Shown: positions 1 through 39,620 of the stretch, one piece after another | How the letters are laid out: each line of letters begins with the position of its first letter | How positions within the stretch are numbered: position 1 is the first letter of the stretch | DNA from: Obelidium mucronatum | Taxonomy: Eukaryota; Chytridiomycota; Chytridiomycetes; Chytridiales; Chytriomycetaceae | Direction of reading: 5' to 3' | Assembly: GCA_025765595.1 (NCBI GenBank) | Contig: JAIVFH010000051.1 | Coordinates: 62,001-126,000 of the forward strand | Length of the DNA: 64,000 nt | Notes under the pieces: model-generated | The model's input: only the letters and a program-made list of their open reading frames with translations | Databases searched by the model: none | Told to the model about the DNA's origin: nothing | Program-made: the position numbers and the translations under genes

Positions 1-93
1 CCGTTGTTGGACGTGTATGGCGGGGACGTTTGTGGAACATTCCATTACTTATTAAAACTCCGAAAAAGTGAATTACAATAAACAATAACTTTA

Positions 94-608
94 TTATCCA
101 GAATTCCCGTTTGACATCTCAACCAGATTCGGCGGTGGCCGCTGCTGGTTTGCATTTGGACGCACGCGAATGTGGGGGCGGATCCCTGCGGGCCGCACGG
201 AATTGCTGCTACCAACCCCTTGGCTTTGACTTTGTGCATTTTGCGATGGGGAAATTACTGGACGCAATCCTCGAGGCCGGATATTCATTCCTTGCTGCTG
301 CAGCATCCGCGCTGCGCTGCCGCCTTGGGTAGATGTATTAGCAGCGCCACTCGGACTCGCCTGAGGACGCACTTGCTGAGGGGACTGTCCAGGGGGTCGT
401 TGAAGAGCTGGTCGCGTTGGCAGTGGCTTGATAAAACGTCCCGTTGGCGTTCCAGGCGGGGCTTGTGCGGCTGCGCCTGAGTGTTCTGTGTTGATTTTCC
501 TTGTTAACAACAGTGTGGCAAAGAAGCAAATATAGGGTTATCACGTACGCGCTGGGATGGGTGCCGTCGCTGCTGGACTGCTGATACTGAGGTCGAAGAT
601 ACCAGAGG
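94..608 (-). pseudogene. TPR/Mlp1 3'-end fragment, copy 1
   Basis: Reads on the minus strand as the Pro/Gln/Ala-rich C-terminal tail of the TPR gene at 11151-18328. It keeps the intron and its splice sites but carries substitutions and a small deletion before the intron that breaks the frame. Its end differs from native TPR: instead of stopping after the PNQ-type end it runs on about 11 residues to a new stop, followed by an AATAAA-like signal. Homology starts at 608, exactly where a TIR element abuts. There is no promoter and no coiled coil, so this is a gene fragment rather than a gene. Confidence 0.85.
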
Positions 609-888
609 CATCAGGAAACAGGGGTTTTTGCCGAAATAAATTTTGATGCATTTGTTGTATTTCAAGGATCTCAAATGCAACGCGATGCATTTCAAATGAA
701 AGAAATGATTTCCTTGCATTTTAGATACAATTAGATGCATTTTAAATATAAGGAATAATTGCTTCTATTTCAGAGACAGTAAGATGCATTTCAAATACTC
801 ACAGATATTTTGATGAATTTGAGATGATTTAGATGAGTTGAGATTTCTGGACATAGACTATGTGAAACTGAATTTCTGCAAGGAGTTG

Positions 889-1030
889 ACTTCCTAGGGA
901 TTGATCCCAGGCACATAAGGCAAAGCTAGGGGTTGATCCCAGGGATTCTAAGGGACTTCCTAGGGATTGATCCCAGGCACATAAGGCTAACCTAGGGGTT
1001 GATCCCAGAGACTCTAAGGGACTACCTAGG
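889..1030. repeat. 66-bp tandem repeat with internal inverted halves
   Basis: Units begin at 889 and 955, and a third starts at 1021 but breaks off after about 10 bp. Each unit contains two CTAGGG-TTGATCCC words. The same unit pair occurs at 9125-9266 in repeat copy 2. Confidence 0.85.
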
Positions 1031-1525
1031 GCTTTGTCGGTCCCTTACCATCACCAACCCATCATTAACTCACTGTTGGCTTCAGGTAAGGTTGGTGGTT
1101 GATAGCCTGCTGCACACACCAACGCTGTTTTTGCAAAATCAACACCCACCCCTCTCCCAACTGGATTGCCTTGCGCGCATAATTATTTTCTTTAAAATTT
1201 TGAGTTGTACATCCTGTCTCCTCAATCAATAAACATTTGGAGGTGGTTCTTGGGCTTGCAGTGTCACCATTGGCTCTCCCACTCCCCATTTTACACCCAA
1301 AAGAGACTTGAAAACGTCGATTCGAGGTTACGGACTTTGATTCCCAGCACTCTCTTGTCGATCGCAGCAAGAAAGTCTATCATTTTGTACTAACGAGTGA
1401 TTTGATTTTCTACGTGTTGGTTTGCTCTTGTTGCGTGACCTGTTGGGGATGCTTTTGTAGTTGCATTGGGGTGCTTTTGTCATTACACTACGCAGGGGTG
1501 CTTTAAGCTGGAAATCGAAAAGAGC

Positions 1526-1878
1526 TAAGGTGAGAACGGGCGGGGGGGTCACCGGCCACCCCTGCCCCGATGTGCTGGGGTTCGGGGCAGGGTCAGCTCA
1601 AACCCTGCCCCGAAAACCCTGCACACCCCCAAACCCTGCCTCAAACCCCAGCACACCCCCAAGGGAAGAGAAAACATCTATTAAAAGCCAATTTAGCTGG
1701 CAATTTAGTGGAATTTTCGCCGCTTACATGGTTTCGGACAGCAGTTTGGCTGAGTTTGGCCAAAACCCGCACAACTCCAGAGGTAAGCCACAGCCCCGGG
1801 GGTTGCTCCGGGGGTTGCGGTGCGGGGAAATCCTGGCCCCGACCCCCAAAGATGTGGGGAAACGCCGTTCTCACCTTA
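1526..1878. mobile_element. hAT-like MITE, 353 bp
   Basis: The terminal inverted repeats are TAAGGTGAGAACGG at 1526-1539 and its exact complement at 1865-1878. They are flanked by the 8-bp direct duplication AAAAGAGC at 1518-1525 and 1879-1886. An 8-bp duplication is the hallmark of hAT-superfamily insertions. The interior is C-rich, with palindromic gccccg/cggggc words, and has no convincing ORF, so it is non-autonomous. It is nested inside the larger TIR element. Confidence 0.85.
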
Positions 1879-2396
1879 AAAAGAGCATACTAACAACTGT
1901 ACACTGGGAAAGAATCCCTTCTTCTCCAAGCGGAGCTCCCGGAATTCCCAATACTGAAACAGGAGTCAAACCTGAAGTGACCGTAGGTGTTATCAGGTTG
2001 ACTGCAACCTGGGTTCTCAACTCAAAATGAAGGAGAGATAAAATAACTTTTAAATAAAGTAAATAAGAAGAATAACTGGACTACCAGGATATACCCAGGT
2101 TTCGAATTGTGCCTTGGGAATTTTGACTTGTGTAGGGGTGGACGGTCAGGGTTCGTGTGTCTTTTGGGATTGCTCATCAATTGGAATAAATATATCTTCT
2201 TCAATACGTGTATAATACGCGTTCAAGGGTTAGCTGTGTCGGGAGTGTCGGTTCTCACATTACTGAACATAGTGATTTTATTGGTACAAAACGTTTAGAC
2301 ACAAAGATCACGTGTCCATTTTTGCACGTGTTTATAAAAATGAGATGTTTTTTTCATTGTTAATTTGTTCCGAAGAGCCACGCAATCTCAACATGC

Positions 2397-3622
2397 AACC
2401 AGGCCGACAATGCCGCCACCACCTCCCAGACTCTGACCGAAAATATGAGATCCATGGCACCAGCGCTTTCGGGCCCTTTGTTTGATGGTACGCTTTGTTT
2501 GATGGTCTGAGTGAGTACCCTACCTTAAACCTTCCATTAGACTAACACCTGCCACCTGACCCCAATCCTACCAATCAACAGACACAAATCAGCGATCTTC
2601 AACCTGTATTCATCGCGAAAATTCGGGCTATTTGAATTTGTGAGTTGCATTATTTATTTGGGTCTTTGCTCACCACGCACATGAAAAAAACACAGAAATC
2701 GCAGCAACGTGCTGCACAATGCTGCCAACTTCCTCGACTTCCATGCAGTCTTCCAGAAGAGTTGTCGCTGCCGATGGTCTGATGACATCCGACTCCATGT
2801 AAGTACAACTACTAACCCAAAATTCATCTAAAACGCTCCTCGGACGCTCGGTCCCTGAAACCCAAGTCTTGTATTCGTCTCAAAAACTGGCTCTTTTTAA
2901 ATATGTGAGTTTTGTGCTTTATTGGAATTTTCACTCACGCAACGCCAGCCAGCACCTAAAAAAGGTACAGAAGTATCGAAGTGATGTTCTGTTCGCCGCT
3001 GCATCATTTTCCAGTCCAACAACCCGTACAAGCTTCCTGATGGCTCCGACGCCGCATCTGCAGCTGCTGCCGAATTGATTACATCAGACAGCAGGTACGT
3101 TGTGTGTTAAGTTCTCTTAAATTCGTCTAATATTGCCAATTTATTCCATCAGGTACCTATTCATTTCGAAACAGTCGGATACTGGCCGGTTGAAACTGCA
3201 GTCTCAATTCCTCAATCCTGCGTTTCTCCAAGTTGCAATAGAAATCACAAGAGATAGTTCCGTCAGCAAAATCTGCAACTTTCGGGAGCTTTCGAAACGG
3301 CCGGAATACATGTTTGCCTGTGCCGTGATTGTGAGTGCTTATTCTTGTGTTTTTCATCGCAACCAATCCCTCTTAACTCATCCTTGGCCAGACGAGACAC
3401 CTCTTGGAGCGTATTGCCTTGCAAAGAACAGGAAATTTCAATGAAAGTTGTTCGTCTGCTTTGGTTTATTCAGAATACATGGAGATGCTGGCTAATCCAT
3501 TAACAAAAGAACGTATGGAAGCGAAAGCAAGACGATTTTATTCGGAATTGGAGACAAAAATCAAGAATACCGCAGTGGAAAAGCAAAAGTGCGAGAGTGA
3601 TGTGGATAGTGGAAGAGAGTAG
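2397..3622 (+). CDS. Multi-exon gene inside the TIR element, function unknown
   Basis: Well-supported 3' exons are 3153-3330 and 3392-3622 (77 codons to the stop). An exon ending at 3094 joins in frame through the GTACGT..CAG intron. The translated C-terminal half is basic and helical, with a phrase around FACAV-TRHLLERIALQRTG and a Lys/Glu-rich tail. Its layout vaguely recalls fungal DUF6532 proteins, but I would not rely on that. Upstream (2570-3000) two stretches with parallel intron positions resemble each other, suggesting exon duplication, and I could not fix a start codon. An AATAAA-like signal follows near 3635. It probably belongs to the element rather than to the host. Confidence 0.45.
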
Positions 3623-3970
3623 TTTTTTTTTTTAAATAAACACGGCCTTAAAATATATTCTCTGTTATTTATTACGGATTTAATTTGGATTTGCTGTGGA
3701 TTTTCGCCCATTTCGAAACAATTTAAGTTGATTCGGAATTGACACCGATAATTTTAAAATACAAACTAAATATTAGCTATTATTTCGTGATGCAACAAAT
3801 GATTTCAGATTGTGCGAAATCATTTCCCTATATTTGAAATCATTTGAGAAATTTTGCATATTTGAAATGCATTGTGAAATCCCGGCCGAATGATTTCAGT
3901 CATTTGGAAGATTTTGATGCATTTCGATTAATTTCGTTGCAACAAATCGCATTCCACAGTTTTCCTGATG

Positions 3971-4310
3971 GGGTTTCCAGGAGTTACCACTCCCGAGGTG
4001 CTCTTTGGGCCTTGACATCCGAAGGCATGATCCAACTGCTGAACTTCTTGTAGAAAACGGGGAATGTTTGGTTGCGCCTTTCTTGGTCCGGCGGAAAAAA
4101 AAGCATTGTTTGATTTCTGCAGGTAATGAAAAAGTTTGCTGAGGAGAAGTATATATAAGATTATGGAATATGGGGCTTTTCTGGGGGTTTTCAGTTGTCT
4201 CGATGGTGTTGACATAACCTGAAAAGAAGAAGCAGTTATGTTTAGTTTGAGCTGGGTCTTTCTCTCATTAAGATGGAGTATTGAGAAAAAGAAAACATAT
4301 ATTTAGAATC
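3971..4310 (-). other. Chimeric joint: TPR scrap plus mS37-like gene start
   Basis: Bases 3971-3992 are the right flank of the TIR insertion and match native TPR. The part at about 4205-4300 resembles the start of the mS37 gene near 50640-50720: a similar upstream segment, ATGAGA, a similar first intron and a similar acceptor. Between them is a short open stretch with no recognised product. I read this as debris from rearrangement. Similarity was judged by eye and is incomplete. Confidence 0.4.
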
Positions 4311-4397
4311 ACAGAAATCCCATCGGAAATCCAATCATATCCTTGCGCCTATCTCCAGCAACATTTCAATTGATAAGCATGGGCATTGCTCACAACC

Positions 4398-5914
4398 TCA
4401 CTGATTCAAAACTTCCGATGCAAAATCCAGAGACACCCGTAAGCAATCAACCAAAGCAGTATCCCTAATTTTCTCAATGCAACTGATCAATTCTTCAACT
4501 TCAAATCCATTCCCAACATCCAGCCGCGCTAATTTTTCCAACACTGTCACAACCAACAACAAATGATCCAATCCTGCCGATCCAACTTGAGGAAATCCAA
4601 CTTTCTTTGGAACGTAGTTGACACTACCTTCGAAAAGGTTTGCCCCAATCCTGACGCATGCTCCAAAGTCACCAAGGAAATAACGACCTTTTTTTAAAGG
4701 ATCAATTAAAAAACAGTTTGTAAATTGAACATAGAGGTTCCATATTACCATCAGCGTCAATAAATATATTGGCGGGCTTTATGTCAGCATGGCAAAAGCC
4801 AAGTTGATGAATATGATTCAATGCGATCAACATGTCTTTGTATACTTTCAATGCTAAGGCCTCTTTCATCGGTTTCGGAACTTGTTCCAAGGCTGCAAGA
4901 TAAATTGGCATCAAAATCCCAGAACGAAGCGCATGGGTCAGTTGAGTTTGAAGCGAAAAAGGTACTAACTCGCCGCCGCTTGATGAAAAGTTGACAAGTT
5001 CCAGAGGTCCGACGAGGTGAAAGGAGTTTTCTTGGTATGGATTTGGAAACAAGGACTCCCAAATTAAAATCTCTTGCTCGGGTTGTGACGAAATCTTCAA
5101 CAGCATGGGCCTTCCTGATTTAAACGCCGTCAAAAGGGTTGCGCGCGAAGGATTCCCAGAACTGAAAACCCCGTTGATTTCAAGGTCGTTCTCGCGCAGC
5201 AAATTTCTTGTCTGTGAATGGGGAATTCTGTGGACTTCCTCCATCAGCGATACCGCGTCATCCACACACCTTATCAGCTGAGCTCGAGAAGCAAAGTACT
5301 TGAGAATCAACTCTTCATCTGCTCGTTTGATTTTCGTGTCTAAGAGGCGTTCAACATTCGCAAGACCGACACCTTGGATTTGGCACAAGTATCAGCAAAG
5401 TAAAAAAAATAAGTTGACGAGATAAACTGCCAGATCCAACAGAACTAAACTGGAAAGCTGTTTGTACGCCTCTTCAGCAGTTACATTGGGCAGTAACTGA
5501 GGCTTTGCTGCAGTTTCCGCAACTGTCTCAAATACTGCTGCTTTAAAGCCCTGCGTTTAGTAAAAATCAGCAGACCAAAGAGACTTTCCACTTACGCTTC
5601 TCCACTTTGATGACCAAAGCCATATCGTCGTCGAGACCAATTCCCGCATCAGTCAGGATACTCAAAAGAACACCAGACTTAAGCGACCCATTCTTGTTGA
5701 GTCTGCACTGGGCAGGAGGCGTCACACCCGCAGGGAGGTGAAGAGACAGTTTGATGAGAGAGACACTGTCCAGGTCAGGCGCAACTGCAATCTTGTACGC
5801 AGCCACGATGTCCGCAACAGCGGGTTCGATGCTCGCAATCACGGCGGGAAGACTCTCCTGCGGAATCGCGATCGTGTTTTTTCCGTTGGAAACCCAAACA
5901 CGAGGTTTCATCAT
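4398..5914 (-). CDS. Crinkler (CRN) family protein with protein-kinase-like C-terminus
   Basis: Proposed exons are 5914-5596, 5540-5451, 5372-4749 and 4687-4398, which sum to 441 codons and join in one frame. Residues 1-106 are a CRN header: a ubiquitin-like fold region with LSLHLPAG in the middle and ending ALVIKVEK just before intron 1, as in its two neighbours. A linker (about 107-137) is shared with CRN3. The remainder looks like a protein kinase: a candidate ATP-lysine (MLLKI), the catalytic-loop motif HADIKPAN (331-338) and DFGA (351-354). The HRD arginine is replaced by Ala. CRN proteins are known as translocated or nucleus-acting effectors in oomycetes and chytrids, and kinase-bearing CRNs are documented. 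No classical signal peptide is visible. The second intron's donor is weak, so that junction is tentative. Confidence 0.75.
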
Positions 5915-5984
5915 TTGTGAAATAAAAAAAAGAAACATTGGTTCAACATTTCATTCATTTCAAACACCCAACAGACACTACTGA

Positions 5985-6152
5985 TTCGGCGGTGGTCGCT
6001 GCTGGTTTGCATTTGGACGCACGCGAATGTGGGGGCGGATCCCTGGGGGGCGCACGGAATTGCTGCTAACAACCCCTTGGCTTTGACTTTGTGCATTTTG
6101 CGATGGGGAAATTACTGGACGCGGTCCTCGAGGCCGGATATTCATTCCTTGC
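5985..6152 (-). pseudogene. TPR/Mlp1 3'-end fragment upstream of CRN1
   Basis: This is about 170 bp of the last TPR coding exon with the native stop context, followed by the same roughly 70-bp spacer that separates intact TPR from CRN3 at 11075-11150. Homology breaks at about 6152, where a foreign 3' exon begins on the other strand. Together with the CRN header it shows that the TPR-end/CRN-start pair was duplicated as one unit. Confidence 0.8.
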
Positions 6153-6278
6153 TACTACGTTTGCTTATTTGTTCCCAGGGAGAGAGACGATCATGTGATT
6201 TGCAGCAAGAAATACGGAGATACCTGGGTTGAATACTGCAAGCGTGTTCCTTACCGGATCGTTCCTTTTATATACTAA
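6153..6278 (+). pseudogene. Stranded last exon of a sterol reductase (ERG24/ERG4/DHCR7 family)
   Basis: After an intron-like tail and acceptor (about 6153-6179), the plus strand reads 32 codons from 6180 to a stop at 6276-6278. They carry the family's C-terminal signature: RDDHVICSKKYGDTW followed by EYCKRVPYRIVPFIY and the stop. AATAAA follows at about 6286. Delta-14/Delta-7/C-24(28) sterol reductases of ergosterol synthesis end in this way. No other exon of the gene is present, so it is a 3' fragment placed tail-to-tail with the TPR fragment. It probably marks the former neighbour of one breakpoint. Confidence 0.75.
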
Positions 6279-6422
6279 ACTTTCGAATAAAGAGGTTGCG
6301 TAACATTTTTTTTTGGTTTATTTGTCTCGTTGAATCTTCTTGTTATCAAACATCAACAAAGATGAAATATAAAATAAAATAAAAATAAAAATAAAGAGAA
6401 ATTCAGGTAGCATCACCTTTTC

Positions 6423-8094
6423 TCAGTTTGTTTTGGATACTTGTACCTCAGAATCTACCAATATTTCACAACTACACTTGTCAGCTCTGACGACCAGCGC
6501 GCAGTTGGAGTCCACACCCAAAGCCTGTGCAGTCAGAGCAGCCAACGGACAGCCAGGGTCAAGCATCGAGTCTACGTCATTTGTAAGGAAACAGTCGTTA
6601 CTGAGGCCAGAAGTACTGCGCGCAAACCCCTCAGGGAGGTGCAGTGACAGTTTCGTGAGGACGACACTATCGAGGTCAGGCGCAACTGCTGTCTTGAACG
6701 CAGCCAAGAGATTTCCAACAACGGGGTCAATACCGGCAAGCACAGCAGGAAGCGTCTGCAAGACAATCGCGATCATATTGCTGTCATGGGAAATATGGAG
6801 CAGTGGCATTTCCCTTTCTTCGTCATCCTTCCTATTGAGAGTTTTGAAAGACATTTCCGCCCAGCGTTGCTCGTGTTCACTCACGACGCTCGTGAGAGAA
6901 AAAACTGCTGGGATGACACATGAATAACTGACAATATCATGAATATTCCCATCGCTTGTACCCGCACAAAGACAAACGGGTCTTTGATGGGTGTCCAATC
7001 GAACCATAAGGATAGAAAGGCCCGTATGAAAAAAAGTAATTTTTTCACGGAATTTGGACGGAATTTCAGTAGATTTGCACAGAGTCTGAACTTCATCAAA
7101 CAGAAACACCAGGGGCGCGTCAGATCTGACCCCAAACGCAAGGTCTGTCAGTCGCATAAATTCTTTCATAACATGGTCAGTTGAAGACACCCACACAGAA
7201 TCAAGCCATTCCTTGAACTTATGTTGGCCAGTCTCAACCTGTGCATTACATGGAAACTCTCGGAATTGAAAATGAATTCCATCCACTTCGCACCCTGCAA
7301 ACATCCGACACAGAAAAAAAACCATGAGCTGTTTCAGAAAGGAGTCTGCCTCAAATACACTTGTAATCTGAATCAAATGCTTCGAGAAATCAAAGGACAG
7401 CACACGGCCAATAGCGGCGGCCTTTACAAGATCAGGGCATTTCAGAGAAAGTCCAAGCCGCTGGGATCCAACGCACTTCAAAAAAAATGTTTTCCCGGTT
7501 CCTTGACTCGAACAGACAATCAAAGGACGATACTTCTGCCAGCGACGTCGCTCGCTGAGGATGTCATTCATTTCCTGAATAGTAATCCTATCTCGACCCA
7601 GCAATGAAATGTTCTCATTGAACTCATATTCAGAAGAACCAGTGAAGAACGGAAATTCCAATTTGTAGCTGGCAGGATCAAACGGCGGCCCAGAATCTGC
7701 TGCTTTGAAGCCCTGTGTTTAGTAAAAATCAGCAGACCAAAGAGACTTTCCACTTACGCTTCTCCACTTTGATGACCAGTGCGCACTTTGACTTGACACC
7801 GAGTCCCAGCGCAGTCAGAGGACAGCCAGGGTCCAGCATTGAGTCCGCCTCATCGACCGTAAAGAAACAGTCTTCGCTGAGGCCACAGTTGCTGCGCGAA
7901 ACACCCGCAGGGAGATGAAGAGAGAGTGGTGTGTTCGTGGGAAGCCCAAGCAGCCCTTGCGAAGGCTGCACCGCACACGCAGCCACGATGTCCGCAACAG
8001 CGGGTTCGATGCTCGCAATCACGGCGGGAAGACTCTCCTGCGGAATCGCGATCGTGTTTTTTCCGTTGGAAACCCAAACACGAGGTTTCATCAT
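6423..8094 (-). CDS. Crinkler with P-loop NTPase and a second, C-terminal header
   Basis: Exons 8094-7758 and 7702-6423 (538 codons plus stop) join at the same intron position as the other CRNs. Residues 1-112 are the CRN header ending ALVIKVEK. Residues of about 127-400 form a P-loop NTPase: Walker A SSQGTGKT (177-184) and Walker B LVFLFDE (310-316), in the style of the NTPase modules known from CRN effectors. Residues of about 412-522 repeat the header: LAAFKTAVAPDLDSV resembles CRN1, and LSLHLPEG, SMLDPGCPL and CALVVRADK correspond to the first header. Header-NTPase-header is not the usual order. It may be a fusion with the header of a lost downstream CRN. The start is the first ATG of the conserved MMKPRVW block; an in-frame upstream ATG exists. 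Confidence 0.8.
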
Positions 8095-8329
8095 TTGTGA
8101 AATAAAAAAAGAAATGTTCAACATTTCATTCATTTCAAACACCCAACAGACACTACTGATTCTGTTTGATCCGCTGACTAGAACGCCAATAGTCCAGCTA
8201 TCACGATCACGGACAACTCAAGGATACGTCAGGATTCCGTTGTTGGACGTGTATGGCGGGGACGTTTGTGGAACATTCCATTACTTATTAAAACTCCGAA
8301 AAAGTGAATTACAATAAACAATAACTTTA

Positions 8330-8844
8330 TTATCCAGAATTCCCGTTTGACATCTCAACCAGATTCGGCGGTGGCCGCTGCTGGTTTGCATTTGGACGCA
8401 CGCGAATGTGGGGGCGGATCCCTGCGGGCCGCACGGAATTGCTGCTACCAACCCCTTGGCTTTGACTTTGTGCATTTTGCGATGGGGAAATTACTGGACG
8501 CAATCCTCGAGGCCGGATATTCATTCCTTGCTGCTGCAGCATCCGCGCTGCGCTGCCGCCTTGGGTAGATGTATTAGCAGCGCCACTCGGACTCGCCTGA
8601 GGACGCACTTGCTGAGGGGACTGTCCAGGGGGTCGTTGAAGAGCTGGTCGCGTTGGCAGTGGCTTGATAAAACGTCCCGTTGGCGTTCCAGGCGGGGCTT
8701 GTGCGGCTGCGCCTGAGTGTTCTGTGTTGATTTTCCTTGTTAACAACAGTGTGGCAAAGAAGCAAATATAGGGTTATCACGTACGCGCTGGGATGGGTGC
8801 CGTCGCTGCTGGACTGCTGATACTGAGGTCGAAGATACCAGAGG
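8330..8844 (-). pseudogene. TPR/Mlp1 3'-end fragment, copy 2
   Basis: Same content as the fragment at 94-608, including the altered C-terminus and the frame break before the intron. It is followed leftward, after about 200 bp with no homology to native TPR, by the usual TPR-to-CRN spacer and the CRN2 start. It is therefore again a TPR end upstream of a CRN. Confidence 0.85.
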
Positions 8845-9854
8845 CATCAGGAAACAGGGGTTTTTGCCGAAATAAATTTTGATGCATTTGTTGTATTTCA
8901 AGGATCTCAAATGCAACGCGATGCATTTCAAATGAAAGAAATGATTTCCTTGCATTTTAGATACAATTAGATGCATTTTAAATATAAGGAATAATTGCTT
9001 CTATTTCAGAGACAGTAAGATGCATTTCAAATACTCACAGATATTTTGATGAATTTGAGATGATTTAGATGAGTTGAGATTTCTGGACATAGACTATGTG
9101 AAACTGAATTTCTGCAAGGAGTTGACTTCCTAGGGATTGATCCCAGGCACATAAGGCAAAGCTAGGGGTTGATCCCAGGGATTCTAAGGGACTTCCTAGG
9201 GATTGATCCCAGGCACATAAGGCTAACCTAGGGGTTGATCCCAGAGACTCTAAGGGACTACCTAGGGCTTTGTCGGTCCCTTACCATCACCAACCCATCA
9301 TTAACTCACTGTTGGCTTCAGGTAAGGTTGGTGGTTGATAGCCTGCTGCACACACCAACGCTGTTTTTGCAAAATCAACACCCACCCCTCTCCCAACTGG
9401 ATTGCCTTGCGCGCATAATTATTTTCTTTAAAATTTTGAGTTGTACATCCTGTCTCCTCAATCAATAAACATTTGGAGGTGGTTCTTGGGCTTGCAGTGT
9501 CACCATTGGCTCTCCCACTCCCCATTTTACACCCAAAAGAGACTTGAAAACGTCGATTCGAGGTTACGGACTTTGATTCCCAGCACTCTCTTGTCGATCG
9601 CAGCAAGAAAGTCTATCATTTTGTACTAACGAGTGATTTGATTTTCTACGTGTTGGTTTGCTCTTGTTGCGTGACCTGTTGGGGATGCTTTTGTAGTTGC
9701 ATTGGGGTGCTTTTGTCATTACACTACGCAGGGGTGCTTTAAGCTGGAAATCGAAAAGAGCTAAGGTGAGAACGGGCGGGGGGGTCACCGGCCACCCCTG
9801 CCCCGATGTGCTGGGGTTCGGGGCAGGGTCAGCTCAAACCCTGCCCCGAAAACC
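8845..9854. mobile_element. Truncated second copy of the TIR element (left 1,010 bp)
   Basis: Starts with the same CATCAGGAAAC terminus at 8845 and contains the 66-bp repeats (9125-9266) and the left 93 bp of the MITE (9762-9854). The right part of the element and its terminus are missing. Confidence 0.85.
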
Positions 9855-11074
9855 GAAACCGAAGTAGACTATACATGCTGCCATGAACGAAAAAAAAGAC
9901 CTTGGATCTTTCAGCTTGTTGCATCTGATACCGCGCTGTTCCGGTTTTGACGAGCGATAGTCCAACTCAAGAACGGTGAGGAGACGTTGTGATTCGTCGA
10001 ACATCACACGGCCGTCAAAATTTTCCTTTGAGTCTATAAATATTTTTCCCGATACCGCTGGAGGCAATGACACGAGTTGAAGGAATAGTGTGTTGAATAA
10101 TATTCGTGAACGTCGACTCCTCTGCATGCAAAACCATTCAAATGGCTTAAAATTTGGATTTTGGACAAACGACCGAATACACGCTTTTGAATACTCTTCA
10201 AACTCATGCTGGCTTTCTTCAGTCTTGGCACGCGGGTTTCGCCCTTCCAACAAGTTGATCATCGTAATGAAGTCAATATCTTTAGTGCAGTCAAAGTAAT
10301 AGCACCAGCGATGGCGACCGTAGTCGTAGCAAGTTCTTGTCTTCCCACACCCACTGACACCAATAAGAACAATTGTGTCTTGCTTGATCTTCAGTAACTC
10401 ATCCACCGGCATATTGATTCCGATAGCTTTCTCATCGTCATAGATCTGACTGGAATAAAGGAGGTCGGGAATCCCATCAACTCCTTTGATTTCAAAGTTT
10501 AGGACGTCTGCAGGCTTGAGCAATGGTTTCCATTGAGTCTTGGGCAGCGAAAACACTTCGGTTTTCGGACTCCGTGTCCAACAGAACTAAACTGGAAAGC
10601 TGTTTGTACGCCTCTTCAGCAGTTATATTGGGCAGTAACTGAGGCTTTGCTGCAGTTTCCGCAACTGTATCAAATACTGCTGCTTTAAAGCCCTGCGTTT
10701 AGTAAAAATCAGCAGACCAAAGAGACTTTCCACTTACGCTTCTCCACTTTGATGACCAGTGCGCACTTTGACTTGACACCGAGTCCCAGCGCAGTCAGAG
10801 GACAGCCAGGGTCCAGCATTGAGTCCGCCTCATCGACCGTAAAGAAACAGTCTTCGCTGAGGCCACAGTTGCTGCGCGAAACACCCGCAGGGAGATGAAG
10901 AGAGAGTGGTGTGTTCGTGGGAAGCCCAAGCAGCCCTTGCGAAGGCTGCACCGCACACGCAGCCACGATGTCCGCAACAGCGGGTTCGATGCTCGCAATC
11001 ACAGCGGGAAGATTCTCCTGCGGAATCGCGATCGTGCTTTTTCCGTCGGAAACCCAAACACGAGGTTTCATCAT
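9834..11074 (-). pseudogene. 3'-truncated Crinkler with P-loop NTPase
   Basis: The header exon 11074-10738 is nearly identical to CRN2's (MMKPRVWVSDGKS.., ending ALVIKVEK). Exon 10682-10593 carries the linker shared with CRN1. The body 10555-9834 has Walker A GVSGCGKT and a Walker-B-like VMFDES. The exons sum to 383 codons, but the second intron would be only 37 nt, so that joint is doubtful and may instead be a frame break. The last seven codons and the stop (9834-9854) come from the duplicated MITE sequence, so the original C-terminus was lost at the repeat junction. The product, if made, lacks the part that follows Walker B in CRN2. It starts only 77 bp after the TPR stop codon, on the same strand. 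Confidence 0.7.
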
Positions 11075-11150
11075 TTGTAGAAATTGTTTGTGAAATAAAA
11101 AAAAGAAACATTGGTTCAACATTTCATTAATTTCAAACACCCAACAGACA

Positions 11151-14100
11151 CTACTGATTCGGCGTTGGTCGCTGCTGGTTTGCATTTGGACGCACGCGAA
11201 TGTGGGGGCGGATCCCTGGGGGCCGCACGGAATTGCTGCTAACAACCCCTTGGCTTTGACTTTGTGCATTTTGCGATGGGGAAATTACTGGACGCGGTCC
11301 TCGAGGCCGGATATTCATTCCTTGCTGCTGCAGCATCCGTGCTGCGCTGCCGCCTTGGCCAGAAGTAGCAGCAGCGCCACTCGGACTCGCTTGAGGACGC
11401 ACTTGCTGAGGGGACTGTCCAGGGGGTCGTTGAAGAGCTGGTCGCGTTGGCAGTGGCTTGATAAAACGTCCCGTTGGCGTTCCAGGCGGGGCTTGTGCGG
11501 CTGCGCCTGGGTGTTCTGTGTTGATTTTCCTTGTTAAAAATAATGTGGCAAGGAAACAAATATAGGTTTATCACGTACGGGCTGGGATGGGGGCCGTCGC
11601 TACTGGACTGGGAGCAACTGATACTGAGGTCGAAGATACCAGAGGGTTTCCAGGAGTTACCACTCCAGCCGCCGTTTGTTTTTGATTTTTCATTGCCTGC
11701 AGCTTCTGCTTGAGCAAAGTCGTTTTATCGTTGGGTGGGGATGTGGCTGGAGCCGCCCTTGATCCTGTTTGTGCAGCTGGAGTCGTATTAGGCTTATTAA
11801 GAACTCCTGGTTTCGGTGTAGGAGTTGCAACAGCAGTAACTCGCGGCACAATATTAGTGGCTACTGTGGTGGGCGTTCGTTGAATCTTGATTACAACTGA
11901 CGGGGTTGGCACATCCACTTGCGCCTTTACTTCCAGTATTGACGCTTGAGCTTTAGTCTCTGATGGCACTGACAAAATTTGGCCAGACTCGGCTGTGTTT
12001 GGACCAAGCGGCAGTGATGTTGAAACAGACTTCACTTCGGTTGCATGAGACTCTGAAGCCGAAACATCTGCACTGGCGCCGTCCACTGACTCTTGTATCA
12101 CATTAGAAGCATCCTTAGTTGCATCATCCCCCAATTCCCCTTCCTCGGCAGTTTCGTCTGTTCCAGTAGTATCCATGGAAGCAGCATTGGATTGAGAAAT
12201 AAGTGGGCCGTCGTCATCAATCGACATTTGATTCGCGTCGCTGATACCCTCCGTGATGACTTCCCCAGCAGCAAGCACCACAGAAACAGCATCTGTCGTT
12301 TTGATCGCCGCTTCATCCATAACAGTATCTTCGCTGTTTTTTGCCACAATTTCGACTGCTGTATCCACGACTGCAGCCAAGGACTCGTCCATTTTGATTC
12401 GTTTCGGAGAAGAGGCAGCAATGATATCATTGGCAGGAAGTACCGCTGGTTGTTGCTCAAGATCAGAAGAGACAACCATAGTGTGTTCATCGTCTCCTTC
12501 ACGTTGGCGTTTTGGGCTCGGCACTGCAGCGTCTGCCAAGGGAAGAAGGATGGACTTCAAGACTGCAGGAGTTGCTGCAGGCAGCAGCGGTGAAGATACA
12601 GAATTGGATTCTTTATCCACGCCACCTTCTTCAAGATTTTCTGTCATTCCGAACGATACTGATGGCGCCTCTGTTGCTGATGTTGCTGGTGCCGCAGCTG
12701 GTGCTGTCGGAGTCAATGATGATAATGATGGCGTCTCAGCAGCCGCGACTGTGGACTCAGTAGTTGCTGTAATTGGCTGCATCCCTGCTTTTTGAAGCTC
12801 TTCAATCTTCAACTCCATAACGCGAACTGTTTCCGTCAAATCCTTGACTTTGGTGTTGGATTCTTTGAGGCGGTCAATCATTCCCTTCATTTTGGTGTTG
12901 GCAGTGGAGATGGTATCCTTGAGCTTTGCTCGCACTGACTCCAATTCGTTTGCAGTCTACCATAGCATTTTTTTGGAACAATCGAGTCTAAATCAGAAAA
13001 ATATTCGGTTCCATACTTTTTTTTTTACCTCAACAGACTGTCCCGCAGCAGAAGCCTTCAGTTCCGCATTTTCCGACGCCAGATTCGTCAGTGAAGCTTT
13101 CGCCTCATTCAATTCGAGCGAGAGAGTTGCGATTTTCTGTTCAAGTGTGTTTTGGCTTGCCACCAACTCGAGTTTCTCGGCTTCAAATACGCTCTGTACA
13201 GAATCGTATTTTACTGTCAGCGCAGAAATTTCGTCCTTCAACGCTTGATGTTCGAGTGGATCCACGCGCTATATATATAAATAATCAAACACACACCCCA
13301 TGTTGCTTTTTAGATTTTTTAAAAAAAGGGGATGCAACATTACACTATATTTTCCTAGAATTTGTGCAGCCCGATTCACAAGACGGCCATTTTCCTCTTC
13401 TAGCGCATGGATTCTCGTGGTAAGAGATTCAATTTGGGTAATCATAACTGTGTGCTGGTCTGCAAAAAAAAAAACGTCAGAACCAAAAAAAAAAAAAAAA
13501 AAAAGAATAAAAAAATAAGCAAACCTCTCAATGGCCCGACTTCAGAATCTTTGGTCTTGATTTGAGCTTCCAGCGATCGGATTTGGTTAGCCAAAGTGTT
13601 ATTTTGAGTTCTGAGACTCGTGTTGGATTCAGTCAACAAATTGACGCGATCGATTTTGCTCATCAACTCGGCATGGAGTGATGCGGATTCTGAATTGAGA
13701 TTCTTTTGACGCTCCTGATTTATTTGTTTTCCAGCCAAAGAAAATAATATCAGATTGGTTGGTTGTGTGAAACGAAAAAAAAACGAACCGCATTCAAAAC
13801 AGCCCGTGAATCATCCAGCGACTTTTGCAAATGATCCAACTGCGCTTGCATTCGATTCACTTTTTGCACAGATAACTCGTTTTCGCGTTCCAAAATGTCT
13901 TTTTCTCGGCGAAGATGTTGAATCAAAGAAGCTGCCCGTTCAGGCTCTTTCAAAGCCGGACTGGCCTCCTCAATGTCCCCCTTTTGGTGCTGATGCATGG
14001 ATTTGAGGCGTTGTGAAAGCGCTTCAAACTGTTCGTGCAATACGGCATTTTGGGAGACCAAATCACGATTGCTGTTGAAACTAGGCCATTTAGAAGAACG

Positions 14101-17100
14101 GAAACAGGACAGCAATTTTTTTGGTTACGTTTGCTGAGCCGCTTGGATATCATGTAGGGACTGATTCAATTTTGCTTCGTAGGTTTGTTTCTCCTGTACC
14201 AACTGTTGCTCGGCTGAATTCGCCTTGTGCTGAATAAAACACAACACACGGTTAGAAACTTTAAAAAACAGGCTTTAAAAAACAGAAACCTGCAGTTCCG
14301 CCGCAAGAGCATTCGCTTTTACAACATCTCCCCTCAAAGCCTCCAAACTCTTGATTCGCTCACTTTCCAGCAAAACAACTTTCTCATAATCGATTCTCGC
14401 CTCTGACAGCCGCTGTTTGTACTTTTTCACTTCATTGGAGATGGCTTTGTAGTTGTTTTGCATGGAGTTCTCAGAAGTCCGTAACCGTTGCATTTCATCC
14501 TCCAGACGGCTTCTCTCCAGCAAAAATTCGATCTGGTCCTTGTCAATCTGAGTACGCTGCTCGGATAATTCTTCGAGTGCTTGAGATAGTTTGCTTTCAG
14601 AATCAAGTCGGATTTTTTCAAGGCTGGAATTCATTCTCTTTGAGAGAAACCAAGTCAGGTAAATCATAATCCCAACGGCTTCCTTTTCTTTTCATTTACC
14701 TGCAAATTAGAAAGCTTTTCATCTGTTTCTTGGCGGTATTTGGCAAAGGTGTCGTCAAACTCTTGCATCTTTTCAGCCAGCTTATCTTCGGCAGCTTTGG
14801 CGATAGCTTTATACTGCTCAATGTGCTCTTTATGAGATTCCAGCGAGGACTGTGCAACTTGCAACTTGATCCTTTCAAACCCACAAGTCAACAAGCTGCT
14901 GAACTTCAAAAATTGTAATTAAAAAAATCAATTACTTGGTGCTCGCCAAATCGTCCCGCAGAGCTTGAACTGAACCAATGTCTCCGGAAGCACCACCCCC
15001 AGGCCCAGTTATTTGGCCGACTTCCCGACTTGTGTATCTCGCTAAACTCTCTTCTGATTCCGCAAGTTTCGCTTCAGTGTGCTCAATGGTTTTCGCAAGC
15101 TTTTGCTCCACGGCTTTTAGGTCGGTTACTTCGCTCGTCGCTTCTTGCAGTTGCGACGTCTTCGTACTCGTTTTTTTAACAACCATTTCCAAGAAATATG
15201 ACTTAAAAAAAACTCACAAGTCGTTCCATTTGAACTTGCAGCTCTTTCACTTCAGATTCAGCACGAAGCTTGAACATGTCAAACTCTTCACGGACAGTTA
15301 GGTTTTCTGACCGAATGGAGGCCCTGTTCAAGAAAAAAAACGTCAAAACATAATACTTTGGTAGTACGATGGGAAGGAAGAACTCACAATTGCGCTTCAT
15401 ATGCCTTTTGAATTTCTTTTCCCTTTTCCGCAGATTCCTTCATCCGCAACTCGCCATCTTCAAACATTCCTTGCAACCGCTTCAAATGCTCTGTCGCCAA
15501 ATCTCGTTGCACAATCAGTTCTTGATTTTCAGTCTGAAGCCTCAATTCGCTCGCTGCAATGACAGATTTTTCGCCATTTACATACTGGAGTTCGTTATTG
15601 GCGGTGTCCAGACGTTGTCTTATTTCCATGTATTGATTGGTTAGTTCCTGCATTCGGGCTTCTTGTGATGACTGAAGATCCATTAATGAATTGATTCGGT
15701 TGTGTAGCTCGTCTTTTTCCTTCTTTTGAAAATCAGAATGTTCATTGAGACTCTTGTACCTCTCTTCAGGCCAAAAAAAAAAAAACAGCTCCTGTAAACA
15801 AAAGTCCAAGACAAAAAAAAATTATAGCAATGCACCTTGCAAATGATCCAACGACGAGTCCAATTTTACAACATGTATCTCTAGCTCATTCTTGGACTTC
15901 ATCAATTCCTCATTTCTTTGTTTCAACGACTGCGTGTCGGTACCCGTCTCATTGCGGAATTCATCAAACTCAGTCTGAAGCCGTTTATACATGGACTCAT
16001 AGTCATTGCTGTTTGCAGGCTCGCCGTTCTCTGGTTTATCTGAAAGAGACACACCGTCACCAACCCCGCTAGCAGAACCAGAAACACTGTTTTCCTTATT
16101 ATTATAGTTGTCTAGCAGCCACTTGATTTGATCTCGTTCACGTTTATACGACCCAGCCTTTAATTCACTGACACGGAAATTCTCCTTCAGCTTCTGGCAT
16201 TCCGCGCGGATTTCTTGCAGCTCAACAGTAACAGATTTCATCCGAGAAAGCGCTTCCTTTTCTTGTGTCAGCTTTTCTATGGACTCCTGGGATGATTGAA
16301 GGGCACTTCGGAGGTGCACGTTTTGGGACTGAAGTTCTTGAATATTCGAAAAGAGGGTATCGTTTTCCAATGATGGAGCTGATGAATCCACCCAACCACT
16401 GCTGATGCGGCTGGTTTCTGATTGAAGCAAAAGATGTTGAATTTGCTTGCTCAGATTCTCAGTTTCAAGAACACTGGCATTATATTTGGATTCAAGACAT
16501 GAAAGAGATGTTTGAAGCGACGCGATCGTTGCTTGAGACTCCTTTTGTTCGGCATGGGATTTATCAAGCTGTGACGAGAGCCGCGCGACTTCCTTTGACA
16601 AGTTGCGCTTATCAGTTATTGCTTGTTTGATCAACGGAGCCTTTGGTTTTTGTTGTCATTTTTGAGTTTCTGCAGATTTATGTGTTCAAAACATCCACTA
16701 ACTCGTTCATTGATATCAGCCACGATCGAGTTCAGGTTTTCATTGAGACGGAAAGTCTCGCTTTTGAGCCGAAGGTTTTCTTCCTTGAGTTCGGAATACT
16801 CTGAATACTGAAGCCCAGTTATTAGCAAACGAACAGAAAAAATCGTAGAAGCTTACAATCTCAGTGAACGTTTTCCCAAACTTTTGACTAGACATTGCAG
16901 CCTGGGACGCTGGATTTAAGAGGGATAACTGATTTTTATGACGATAAGCCCAAGTCTTTTAAAAACATCAAACATTCGTTACCGTAGCATTTTCTCCTCC
17001 CCTTTGCCTTAAAGTCTCAACAGTGCTATTCAACTCATCAATCTTTTCGTCTCGGCTTTCCAAATCCCGTTTTAAATCTCTGACGGAAGACTCCAGTTCC

Positions 17101-18328
17101 AATCGTGCCTGAATTGCTTGACGAATCTCGTCCTGGGCTTTATGGGCGGTCTCCAAGCACTCTTGCATTCGTTGCGCATACTCTTCTGATTTCGATTTGT
17201 AAAGATTCGCCAGGGATTCTTGCATGTTGAGTTCGGTTTTGAAGGATTTTTCATGCTGAATGAGGCGCGACTCAGACTGGAGTTGAAAACGGATGATGAG
17301 TTATAAGGACAGGAGCAAATACAAACACTCACATGCTCCAGTTTTGAAATGAGTTCCGAAATTCGAGTTTCGTTTGCATTTGTTTTTTCAATCAAGGCCG
17401 CGGACTTTTGTTCAAGAGTATCTTTCTCCTGCGTCAAAGTTTCCACTGTTTTGGAAAGGAGGGCAACTTCTGCTGTCTGATTGAAGGTGTCAATAGAGGA
17501 GAAATATAGGAAAAGAGGGATCCCAACCTTACTTTCCCGAAAAGCAGAAGACTCTAGAGACTTTCTCTCTAACTCGGAATTCAACCAGTCTACATTCTTC
17601 TTCAATTCCACCCTCTCCTTTTCAAAAGCCACCATTTGAATTCGAAAACGAGTTTCCTCGGACTGGCTAGAATTGGCCAGAGCGGACGATGCATGCATAT
17701 CTGAATTCATTGTTTCCAATTCTTTTTGAAGCCTGGTTATTGTGTCTTTGAAGAGAAATGAGTTGAGGTGTTTGGCCAGAATCGACTGAAACCTTTCGCA
17801 TCGGATGCTTCCTTCTCCTTCAACTCGCGATTTCGCTTCAAAACCTCCGCTTCTTTTTCTTTTTCATCAATGATTCGTCTTGCTTCAGCCAGTTGAGCTG
17901 CACTGTGCTCCAACCCACTTCGAGCATTTGACACGGAAGCTCTCTCTGATTGGAGCTCAAGTTCTGTCACAAACCAATTAGAAACAAAAGAGTAAGAACA
18001 AGAGAAGAAAGCAGGACAAACCCAAGGAGGCAACTTTAGACTCTAGAGACTTTGCAGAATCCAGTTTCGACCTCAAGGCCCTTGCCTCCGCTTCCAGCAA
18101 ATGCGCTCTTGATTCTGAAGAAGAAATCAAAGCATTTTTTGATTTTCAGTTCCTGATGCAAGCCGCCATGTTGGATTTCAGTTTTGTACCGAGTTCATCT
18201 TCGTCGCTAACGAGAGGCTTCTGGAGCACTGGCTCTGCTTCTGAGGCTTCTTTCGCTTTTTGGGCTTCGAGCTCTGCTTTTCTTTTTGCCAGCAAAGCTG
18301 CAAGTCTGGAAACCGGGGGTGCTTCCAT
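11151..18328 (-). CDS. Nuclear pore basket protein TPR/Mlp1-like
   Basis: A gene of about 7.2 kb with many short introns, starting MEAPPVSRLAALLAKRK at 18328. After a short N-terminal segment, nearly all exons between 18.1 and 12.9 kb encode heptad-rich coiled coil (long Glu/Lys/Gln/Leu runs). The 15.4-15.8 kb exon fits the TPR/MLP1/MLP2-like region. The exon 12944-11571 is an acidic Thr/Ser/Ala-rich tail with a KR-rich patch (SPKRQ). The last exon is Pro/Gln-rich and ends at 11151. TPR/Mlp proteins form the nuclear basket filaments and act in mRNA export and surveillance. The final intron joins as PART-KINTEH when GTGATA is the donor. The exon at 14.7-14.9 kb and others have poly-T tracts at acceptors. 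Individual exon borders were not all resolved. Its 3' end is the source of the duplicated fragments to the left. Confidence 0.85.
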
Positions 18329-18384
18329 TTAATTCTGAAGTTAAAACTATTATTTATTATTTATTATTTAATTTTAAATCGAAA

Positions 18385-19203
18385 ATGGCATCTGACGACA
18401 ATTTCAACATTGACACGTATCTCCGGGTGGAGTCCACAAGCTTCACCCAGGACAAGGAAGCAGAACGCATCCTCGCTCTCGCAGATAAAGCCGCAAATCC
18501 CTTGGAAGTATTGGATCTAGACCACAAGCCATGGCTGCTTGGGAAGCTTGAGGAGAAGGACATCAAAGCCACTTACCGTAAAAAGTCGCTCTTGCTGCAC
18601 CCCGACAAGTGCAAGCATCCGCGTGCACAAGACGCATTTGAAATGCTCAAGAAGGCGGAAAATGAGCTGATGGAGGAGGGCAAACGGCAGTGGCTGCTGG
18701 GTCTTGTTGGTGCGTTTTCTCGTCTTATGAAACCCCTGTTTGGATGTACTTTTTTATTCATACTGCAACTGTTAGGTGAAGCTCGAATTGCTGTTTTCAA
18801 AAGGAAGAACCTCATCAAACAGAATGCCACCACTACCAACAACATACCACTTCCAGACCCCGAGAAGGCTTCTCAAGAATTCAATATTTTAGTTGCAGCT
18901 GTTAAAGTCGAGACGAGAAAGCTTTTGGTTGATCAGGGACAACGTGATTCAGTGCGACTGAAGAATGAAGTGGAGCGGAAGAAGGAAGAGGAAATCCGTG
19001 TTGCCGATGAACGCAAGCGAAAACTGGAAAACGATAAAACTTGGGAAGAGGTGAGCTGCATGTCATGGTATTGGGCCTCTTCCAACCGTTTTTATTTCCA
19101 GGGACGAGAAGTACGAGTGAATGACTGGCGCAAGTTTGTAAAGAAGGGCGATGCAGCGGCCAAAAAGAAGAGAAAAGGAAATGGACCGGAATTACTTGGA
19201 TAA
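18385..19203 (+). CDS. DNAJC8-like J-domain protein (spliceosome-associated)
   Basis: Exons 18385-18709, 18776-19050 and 19102-19203 give 233 codons plus stop. The J domain covers residues of about 40-90, with the hallmark HPDK in KSLLLHPDKCKHP. A charged helix follows, and the C-terminus has the DNAJC8-type signature around WEEGREVRVNDWRKF, then a Lys-rich tail. DNAJC8 associates with the spliceosome and SR-protein kinase; the assignment to this subfamily rests on the C-terminal motif. It is divergent from TPR across only 56 bp, so the two genes probably share a bidirectional promoter. Confidence 0.85.
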   Translation: MASDDNFNIDTYLRVESTSFTQDKEAERILALADKAANPLEVLDLDHKPWLLGKLEEKDIKATYRKKSLLLHPDKCKHPRAQDAFEMLKKAENELMEEGKRQWLLGLVGAFSRLMKPLFGCTFLFILQLLGEARIAVFKRKNLIKQNATTTNNIPLPDPEKASQEFNILVAAVKVETRKLLVDQGQRDSVRLKNEVERKKEEEIRVADERKRKLENDKTWEEVSCMSWYWASSNRFYFQGREVRVNDWRKFVKKGDAAAKKKRKGNGPELLG

Positions 19204-19267
19204 TAATAAAGCGTTTGAAGCTTGAAATCTTGTTACTATTTATTTTAAAGAAATAATAGTTAAAATA

Positions 19268-21201
19268 ATGTCTCAATATTATTCCGTTCAACTCAAGAAG
19301 AAAGACGGCCGCCTCTCTCTGACTCCAGCGGCAATTGTCTTTGCTGCAAACAATTCAGCAGCAGACTCAGTCTCGGTGCCAACCGCCAGAGTAAAGTCGC
19401 AAGCTGCCAATGTTGTTTCGGAAAAGAACCCAAGAGTTGTCCTCAAGATCACTCTGGTTGATGGCGAAGCACTCAACTTTGTCTTTGTGGGTCAAGGCGC
19501 TGAAGCGTCAAGGTGTGTTTTGCAAGTGGCCTTTGGCCCTTCCTACACGCTAAATATATTCAAACAGGACCCTCTTTTCAAACTCCCTCAAAGCCGCCCT
19601 GGCAATGAAACAACAGCAGCAACAGCAAGTATCTGATTCCAGGCCGAATTCAGCGTCCTCTGGTTCAATCACTGCCCACGATATCCAAATCAGACAGGCT
19701 CTCTTAATGAACCCAAAATACAAGGATCTCGCTCAACTCCATCGCGATCTTGTAATTGGCCAAATTATTTCGGAGCACGACTTTTGGCTGTCTCGAAAAG
19801 AACTGCTTGTGAATCAGGATTGGGTCTCGGGAATGAAGAAGGGCCAATCATCAGCTTCCCTTGTCGATGTCGTTCGCGCAGCTGCAGGGAGCTCATCGAA
19901 TTCTTCAGGAAGTGGTGATAATGGTGAGCACAGATTTGAACGCTTAATAGAACTCATATTCGTCATCAGAAGTGGAAAAGCAAGATCCTTCACAACCAAC
20001 AACGACAACAGTCAAATTCACACCCGAGATTATCCATTCTATTTTTGTGCAGTCTCCTGCCGTTCAAGTCGCCTATGAGAAGTATGTTCCAGAAAAAATG
20101 AGTGAACGCGAGTTTTGGACAAAGTATTACACGTCCAAAGCGTTCCACGCTCTGAAGGCTGGAAAATCATCTAGTGGCGATCGATCTGAAATTTTCAGTG
20201 AAGGAGAAGCTGAGATTGAAGATGGTTGGTTATTTATTATTTCATTTCTTGTGATGCTTGTGTTTACCCCTCTCCTCCAAAAAAAAAAAATATCCAAGAC
20301 TTGCTACCCATCCCGAAAAAACTCAAAAAAGATCCAACAAACAAACTTCTTGACCTGAGTGCAACAATGGAAGACCACTTGGATTATGGAAACGCGCCAG
20401 ATACAACAATGAAACCAGGATCTTTCCGGAATGCGCTTCCCATCATTCGAAGACTCAATCGCCACTCCACAATCGTTCTCAAGAGTGCTGGTGATGCTGT
20501 CGTTTCTCAGCCCACAAAGTTTTACGAACAAGAGACTGTTTTGGAAGATTTGATGCCTCCGCAAAAGTTGGAAACGCGGGAACTGCGTATTCTCCAAGCA
20601 TCAAGTTACTTTGGTGGTGTCGTGGACGGAAGTGCGGGGAAAGAAGGAGTCAACTCAGCTGGATTGGTTTCTGCGTCGTTGAATGGATGGCAACCAAAAC
20701 TAATGACTGTAAGGAGGTTCCTCACCTTCTCGATTGTTTTCCTTTTGCTCATCATTGTTATCCAAAATAGGTAGCTGTGAATCCGGTGGTCGGTGGTAAA
20801 GTATATGCCGCCTTGAATCGAGCATCTTTGAAGCGAAAAGTTGTCATTCCAACGTGCAAAGGTATATTTTGTATCGCATCATATTGAATGCATCGAAATC
20901 ACAAGTAATCCAAAAAAATATAATCAAATCAGAGACCTTGAACCGCTCAATACGTGATGACATTCATCAAATTCAAAACAGCGCGAGCGAACTACTTCGT
21001 CACTATTGGGCATTCAAGCAGAAAGCAGAGTCTGCAACTGGGGAAGCTGCTGTAATGATTGCTGGCAAGTTGGAGAAATTGAGAGTGGCCATCGTCAATG
21101 TTTATTCCCACATTGTCCAGTTTCAGCAGAGTTTTGAGGGAGGAGAAGACGCGAAGTTATTGGAAGGGATCAAGATTGCGATGGCATACGTTTCTCAGTA
21201 A
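19268..21201 (+). CDS. TFIIH core subunit p62/Tfb1-like
   Basis: Exons 19268-19512, 19568-19923, 19970-20224, 20299-20708, 20771-20861 and 20933-21201 give 541 codons plus stop in one frame. Residues of about 1-90 form the PH-like domain (KKKDGRLSLTPAAIVF, then VVLKITLVDGEALNFVF). Two BSD domains follow, each with the Phe-Trp pair (SEHDFWLSR and SEREFWTKYY). The C-terminal half, with LPIIRRLNRHS and a final helical segment, fits Tfb1. The protein scaffolds TFIIH for transcription initiation and nucleotide excision repair in the nucleus. A Gln run sits between the PH and first BSD domains. It starts 64 bp after the DNAJC8-like stop. Confidence 0.9.
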
Positions 21202-30487: not shown

Positions 30488-30570
30488 AGTCCCGTTGGCG
30501 GAGTGGTTAACGCGGCGCCCTGCTAAGGCGTTTCCCTTTGGGAGCGCAGGTTCGAATCCTGTGCGGGACG
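30488..30570 (+). tRNA. tRNA-Ser(GCU)
   Basis: Acceptor stem GTCCCGT pairs with GCGGGAC (one G-U). The anticodon loop CTGCTAA gives anticodon GCT and is closed by GCGCC/GGCGT. The TTCGAAT T-loop is present, as is a long variable arm typical of serine tRNAs. No intron. Confidence 0.93.
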
Positions 30571-30666
30571 AGTTTTGCTCCGCACTATTATTAATATTGT
30601 TTATCTGTAAAAATCGACGAATTTATGCTGACACCAGCACTGTTCAAATATTAATGATAGTATCAT

Positions 30667-31146
30667 TCATTTCTTCTTGTTTCTACTGATATCGCGATGA
30701 TCCAAAACAACTTGGACATCTTTATCCCACGTCCACACCGCCAACCGTTCACAGATTGCAACACTACGATGTCTACCCATTTCGCAACAAACTGCCACAT
30801 GAATGGGTCCATCTTCAATGTCTAATGCCCTTACAATCACCTCGACAGCATGTGTGAAAAAAACTTGAACCTCCGGGATGGCAAAGAAACTTTCCTGAAG
30901 CGACTTGTTCTGCCCAGTGCATTTTAGTCGTATATTTTTTGGTGGATTTGGCAGTGTTCGAGCATTGAAGTGGAGTGATGCAGATGATGATTCAGACGGA
31001 GGAGGTGTCACCGCAAGAGGTCCAAAGCGGTGTCCAAAAGATTGTATCTTGAGGATTCTCGATTTACTTTGGAACGGAAAAGAGTTGTTTGATACGTGGT
31101 TGCGATTCAGTGGAATTGGGGGAAGGTCATCTTCAGAGTCAGACAT
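30667..31146 (-). CDS. RapZ C-terminal-domain-like protein
   Basis: A single exon of 159 codons. Residues of about 31-140 match the C-terminal domain of bacterial RapZ/YvcJ: KIQSFGHRFGPL, the FNARTLPNP block, KCTGQNKSLQE, then VAVCCEMGRHRSVAICERLA with the CxxGxHRSV signature at 121-129. In bacteria this domain binds GlcN6P and the small RNA GlmZ; the N-terminal P-loop kinase domain of RapZ is absent here. Stand-alone RapZ-C proteins exist in fungi, but I know of no established role for them. It lies head-on to the tRNA gene. Confidence 0.8.
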   Translation of the reverse strand: MSDSEDDLPPIPLNRNHVSNNSFPFQSKSRILKIQSFGHRFGPLAVTPPPSESSSASLHFNARTLPNPPKNIRLKCTGQNKSLQESFFAIPEVQVFFTHAVEVIVRALDIEDGPIHVAVCCEMGRHRSVAICERLAVWTWDKDVQVVLDHRDISRNKKK

Positions 31147-39606: not shown

Positions 39607-39620
39607 GGTTTAATTAGGAT

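Follow-up and report, generated by a model that had tools for sequence, protein, structure and literature searches.

We describe a cluster of Crinkler-like (CRN-like) genes at the left end of a 64,000-bp stretch of the Obelidium mucronatum genome, adjacent to the 3′ end of a TPR/Mlp-like gene. The stretch (referred to below as the window) comprises positions 62001-126000 of contig C51, in an assembly of 48.3 Mb and 694 contigs; coordinates without a prefix are positions in the window. The original prediction for this DNA, made from its letters alone, was of a tandem array whose units share similar front ends and differ in their bodies. Self-BLAST of window 1-18000 and, separately, of C51 1-126000 reveals such an array, and one larger than was claimed; given the lengths and identities of the repeat matches, chance is excluded as their source. 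The array extends left past the window to C51:57,256, all of its genes lie on the minus strand (as do the tails, headers, and bodies listed below), and it contains five header exons, the end of TPR together with three fragments of its tail, two N1 bodies, two N2 bodies, and one kinase body. With T denoting a TPR tail, H a header exon, N1, N2, N3, and K the bodies, and C plus a number a contig, the order from the intact TPR gene leftwards is T0, H0, N1 (truncated), 1,010 bp of a terminal inverted repeat (TIR) element, T1, a long terminal repeat (LTR)-like repeat, H1, N2, T2, H2, K, 23 bp of TPR, the full TIR element, T3, the LTR-like repeat, H3, N1′, H4, and N2′, followed by flank common to C51 and contig C150. 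Among the deposited NCBI proteins, P0001 (BDR26DRAFT_865614) corresponds to H1-N2, P0002 to H4-N2′, and P0023 to H3-N1′.

The 3′ end of the intact TPR gene, which continues rightwards, lies at 11151-11645 (T0), with its stop codon at 11151-11153. The first Crinkler-like start follows at 11074 (second Met 11071), a distance of 76-77 bp that agrees with the 77 bp originally given, and opens header H0 (10738-11074; intron ~10693-10737). The same arrangement of TPR end, spacer, and CRN start recurs where it had been proposed: at 8844-8094, where alignment places T1 (8362-8844) before H1 (7758-8094, the start of P0001; second Met 8091; intron ~7713-7757), and at 6153-5914, where T2 (5983-6153), the shortest copy, precedes H2 (5596-5914; second Met 5911; intron ~5551-5595). 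A further Crinkler gene had been expected left of base 1, beyond the tail T3 (126-608); header H3 indeed starts ~143 bp before base 1 and is followed by N1′ (the two spanning ~C51:61858 to 59322), and a fifth header, H4, lies beyond it at C51:58840-59187. The introns are given in a 45-bp reading, with limits uncertain by ~15 bp because the NCBI gene models, as read from the deposited proteins, set the acceptor differently among copies.

Header and body similarities within this array conflict. The H1 header is 99.1% identical to that of H3, versus 81.1% for H4, yet H1 and H4 carry N2 bodies that are 99.1% alike (14 differences in 1,565 positions; 96% by BLAST if the header sequence is included). 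Because of this conflict, simple tandem duplication of whole TPR-end/CRN units is rejected; H0 and H3 alone would fit it. H1 and H3 share 2,138 identical bp, running from the element fragment through T, the LTR-like repeat, the spacer, and the header into the intron: window 1-1618 repeats 8237-9854 exactly, the block reaches its full length with an extension left of the window, and the other copy of the whole block occupies 7717-9854. In the 45-bp intron reading, identity stops 4 bp short of the splice site; 20 of the 25 bp that follow are alike, falling to nine in the 25 bp after that, and behind the block stands N2 in one copy and N1′ in the other. Under a constant rate, at the N2-pair divergence of 0.9%, the probability of finding no difference in 2,138 bp is 4.5e-9. 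The proposed exchange at the conserved intron is supported here, with H1/H3 identity ending in the intron and unlike bodies after it, and re-pairing of headers with bodies is well supported by these comparisons.

A genome search with a header profile gave at least 34 header matches, nine of them on C51 and C150 (among these nine, two on C51 and one on C150 are the C-terminal domain of N2); outside these two contigs, the DNA around the matches was read on C165, C655, C96, C384, C519, and C2. We aligned nine headers, that of C655 belonging to a copy of the C165 region. As claimed, the header exons are similar to each other; the header itself is, to judge from the alignment, a mosaic. A 59-bp stretch comprising the header end and intron is identical in all six C51 and C150 headers, whereas divergence across the aligned header regions reaches 25%. 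A block of ~60 bp occurs in two forms, one in H0, H1, H3, C150, and C165a and the other in H2, H4, C165b, and C655. Switches between H0-like and H4-like sites are fewer than in shuffles (14 in 90 sites versus 38.6 for the C150 header, 12 in 85 versus 41.5 for H2, 7 in 72 versus 35.5 for C165b, and 7 in 85 versus 12.8 for H1); shuffles as low as observed numbered 0 of 10,000 for each of the first three and 3 of 10,000 for H1, counts that are to be taken as support rather than as a clean test because sites within one block are not independent. Elsewhere in the genome, two headers of the same orientation at C96:115201-119200 share 158 bp at 96% identity and later 50 bp at 94%, and are unlike between and after these stretches, which suggests shuffling within the header. 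At C384:7801-11500, three header matches fall within 3.7 kb. A header region there holds 263 bp repeated exactly, head to tail, and 455 bp are copied at 99% identity; this appears to be another recently duplicated header cluster.

The bodies set behind these headers are unlike one another: in a BLASTP comparison of N1′, N2, K, and N3, no match among them fell below E 0.9. N1 (9855-10586) and N2 (6423-7718) look like P-loop nucleoside triphosphatases (NTPases), with Pfam AAA matches below the cut-off. An NTPase gene is present next to the intact TPR gene, as predicted, but its body is cut at 9854/9855. The N1 open frame, 250 aa long where the left copy N1′ has 683 aa, runs for about six codons beyond the junction before it stops, and the N1 sequence is missing 36 bp that N1′ contains. 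N2 bears a second header-like domain at the end of its frame (~6468-6785), found in both C51 copies and in C150, so that the N2 protein has a header at both ends; we infer that N2 was long ago fused in frame to the header of a unit that once came next. The structure prediction for the N2 body has a predicted local distance difference test score (pLDDT) of mostly 60-95. A fold search with the model of P0001 (mean pLDDT 54.3) returned 664 matches at E up to 10 and none at or below 0.001, the first being an origin recognition complex (ORC) subunit at 3.7e-3. K (4398-5550) starts with ~115 bp of N1-type linker (5435-5550), followed by kinase frames at 4702-5391 and 4398-4778, the first of which matches PF00069 above the cut-off (E 1.2e-8). 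On C26, a relative of the kinase follows a header missed by the header profile. A fourth body, N3, lies behind the same header module on C165 and C655. We note that C165 carries header-N3 in two copies 37 kb apart (17930-20358 and 55430-58011), and that C655 duplicates part of C165 at 99% identity.

We think it likely that the Crinkler-like genes downstream of the TPR/Mlp-like gene form a tandem array that has been rearranged repeatedly and recently, with units made by recombination in the header and intron. Each recombination event producing a new unit would be homologous on one side, within the header exon and the short intron, and end-joined on the other, whether in TPR, a body, or a transposon. 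Different bodies would in this way come to stand behind one front end (5′ flank, header, and intron), and conversion-like exchange would also shuffle pieces within the header. As the CRN 5′ flank is contained in the TPR tail, the two genes being only ~76 bp apart, the tail would travel along with it.

It is unlikely, in our judgment, that the units were instead moved or bridged by mobile elements and their headers homogenized later, even though both candidate elements occur at the locus. A TIR element of 3,362 bp (609-3970; short terminal inverted repeats CATCAGGAAA; dispersed copies elsewhere; frames read by eye) splits T3, and a 1,010-bp end fragment of it (8845-9854) makes the N1/T1 junction. 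The insertion that the original prediction placed in the 8844-8094 unit is present, and proves to be a dispersed, LTR-like repeat of 199 bp (8163-8361, TG...CA between GATTC repeats); it lies in two of the spacers, its second copy ending at 125, and 18 of its 20 genome matches are outside the array. However, the T2/N2-flank join and the N1′/H4 join are direct, without either element, and the far side of the TIR element carries a 23-bp TPR remnant (3971-3993), from which it follows that the element inserted into an existing TPR-tail copy. Two other repeats were observed on this contig, namely an inverted repeat of ~1.3 kb at 90% identity left of the window (C51:15569-16885 and 30523-31820) and an 81-bp exact repeat with starts 153 bp apart at window 39305-39538.

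The TPR tail had itself been proposed as the constant duplication handle; on such a model, homologous recombination between tails would create and re-pair the units. A DNA search finds the tail in at least five places, four in C51 and one in C150; it precedes the single C150 header and four of the five on C51 (the exception, H4, comes after the end of N1′), and T1 and T3 lie inside the 2,138-bp identical block. Alignment of the four TPR 3′ segments (11156-11645 in T0) shows T1 and T3 to be identical across 483 bp, with 23 of 483 sites differing between T1 and T0 and two of 171 between T2 and T0. The tail copies have two independent outer ends, which fall at unlike TPR positions, 11326 for T2 and 11667 for T3 before it was split by the element (T1 is a copy of T3, so its outer end is not independent), and the T2 join, to the N2 3′ flank, has by eye a microhomology of ~1 bp. 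Headers without a tail also exist: besides H4, two on C165 and one on C655 (a copy of one of C165's) share the header and intron, and these tail-less headers (C165a, C165b/C655, and H4) begin to resemble the TPR-linked ones only at a T-rich tract ~25-45 bp upstream of the start codon, so that the tail is an addition peculiar to this locus that moves along with the 5′ flank. The observed switch points, moreover, lie in the header, in the intron, or just beyond. We therefore regard the tail as a very improbable handle: it is probably not the main recombination site, but rather a carried-along 5′ flank that may hold the CRN promoter. A part for the tail in the H1/H3 exchange is possible, because it lies inside the identical block. 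The gene to the right of the array is putatively nuclear-pore-like: PF07926 (TPR_MLP1_2) matches the frame at 14275-14691 with E 9.5e-8 and PF25785 the frame at 15822-16655 with E 6.6e-4, both below the curated cut-off, and on the latter frame APG6_N, another coiled-coil family, scores better (E 1e-5), also below its cut-off.

Copy-number change, another expectation for this locus, is visible within the assembly itself, which holds two versions of it, with five headers on C51 and one on C150. Contig C150 (68,456 bp) aligns from one end to the other with C51:55037-140580, in blocks of mostly 91-98% identity, with several unaligned stretches (counting pieces of at least 300 bp; window 38858-42917, or C51:100858-104917, is one such stretch), from which it follows that the two versions differ by more insertions. 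They differ at 91 of 5,328 sites in the TPR gene and at nine of 2,211 in the left flank. C150 holds a single unit, T-H-N2, whose header sits between TPR and the N2 body with flanks aligning to C51. The TPR side of this header resembles H0, and its body side resembles H4 for the most part; the additional C51 DNA, ~13.4 kb, lies between H4 and H0. We read C150 as the other haplotype of the locus; it could instead be a paralogous segment. The one-unit contig, together with an identical 2,138-bp block that could mislead an assembler, might suggest that haplotypes or repeats were strung together in C51 and that the true locus is single. We give this little credence: C51 1-146000 contains no N, the TIR element has clean junctions with TPR on either side, and bodies K and N1 occur at high identity in C51 only (next best 50-67% for K and 54% for N1) and are therefore not derived from C150.

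Several points weigh against the rearranged-array interpretation that we favor. H0 and H3 show no conflict, being alike in both header (98.3%) and body (98.5%, N1 versus N1′). K and N1 share the header end, the intron, and the ~115 bp of N1-type linker (180 of 182 bp) before the kinase begins, and the N1/K switch therefore lies beyond the intron, by ~115 bp. The shuffle test takes neighboring sites as independent, which is untrue within the ~60-bp block, so that the clustering is overstated. One crossover does not explain the C150 header, because several switches are needed, and C150 could be either ancestor or contraction, the direction being unsettled. T1 differs from the two TPR versions at 23 and 22 of 483 sites, and these differ from each other at 12 of 512; as T1 is farther from both than they are from each other, part of the array may predate the C51/C150 split. 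The promoter role of the tail is something that we only infer, and the C51 array rests on one assembly.

The genes themselves are best called Crinkler-like, because their headers do not match Pfam's Crinkler model. PF20147 was not listed, at a limit of E 10 and with HMMER filters that drop most matches above 0.1, for the array proteins P0001, P0002, and P0023 or for P0024 (on C2); its eight matches in a genome search include none on C51 or C150, and there were none in 14 control genomes. The header model (mean pLDDT 44.5, and below 50 for the header part of P0001) is too poor for comparison with a ubiquitin-like fold, and for the motifs LxLFLAK and HVLVxxP we see only loose by-eye resemblances, LSLHLPA and ALVIKVE. 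One header type is nevertheless joined to N1, N2, K, and N3, the Crinkler trait of a header with several unlike bodies, and the N1-type body is found behind a PF20147 header in P0048 and, over 49% of its length, in P0073 (PF20147 precomputed). What makes the array genes Crinkler-like would thus be their architecture and, for N1, the body, rather than the header. Obelidium mucronatum is a saprobe and not a known pathogen. The effector role implied by the term "effector factory" in the original prediction is to be taken as putative.

Reshuffling of CRN headers and bodies has been inferred from comparison of family members (PMC3726527, PMC5289972). This work on Phytophthora describes header/body recombination at HVLVxxP (Haas 2009, as cited in PMC5289972), ubiquitin-like headers (PMC5289972), and, in P. 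sojae, recombination patterns, tandem duplicates, and nearby transposons (Shen 2013, PMC3726527). The Obelidium array likewise has similar headers before unrelated C-terminal bodies, tandem duplicates, and transposons nearby; it differs in that identity ends in the intron just past the header, that the header is a mosaic, that most units carry the tail of a neighboring nuclear-pore-like gene, and that the host is a chytrid fungus. Chytrid CRN-like genes are known from pathogens and non-pathogens alike (Batrachochytrium, Homolaphlyctis, and Spizellomyces), with few signal peptides and some kinase bodies, and the accessible part of that study describes no such array or allele comparison (PMC5364385). 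The Chytriomyces confervae gene CcCBS67573_g03309 (P0048) has an N1-type body, 46% identical over 96%, but its own header matches PF20147 (E 3.7e-8), unlike those of the array. A literature search that reached few subscription papers found nothing joining Crinkler and Obelidium; as far as it extends, the principle of header/body recombination is known, and the version pair, the recent exchange, and the TPR-tail flank are new.

A doubtful extension of this picture is that the header-intron module is a preferred exchange site still generating header-body pairs at this locus, with the TPR-end flank giving each new gene a working promoter, and that fungi possessing two dissimilar versions harbor arrays of unequal length and recombine them. 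What the locus offers is a single assembly with five-header and one-header versions, and an exchange so recent that 2.1 kb stays identical before different bodies; breakpoints, direction, and rate therefore become measurable. It would provide a snapshot of the reshuffling of an effector-like family, in a saprobic fungus.

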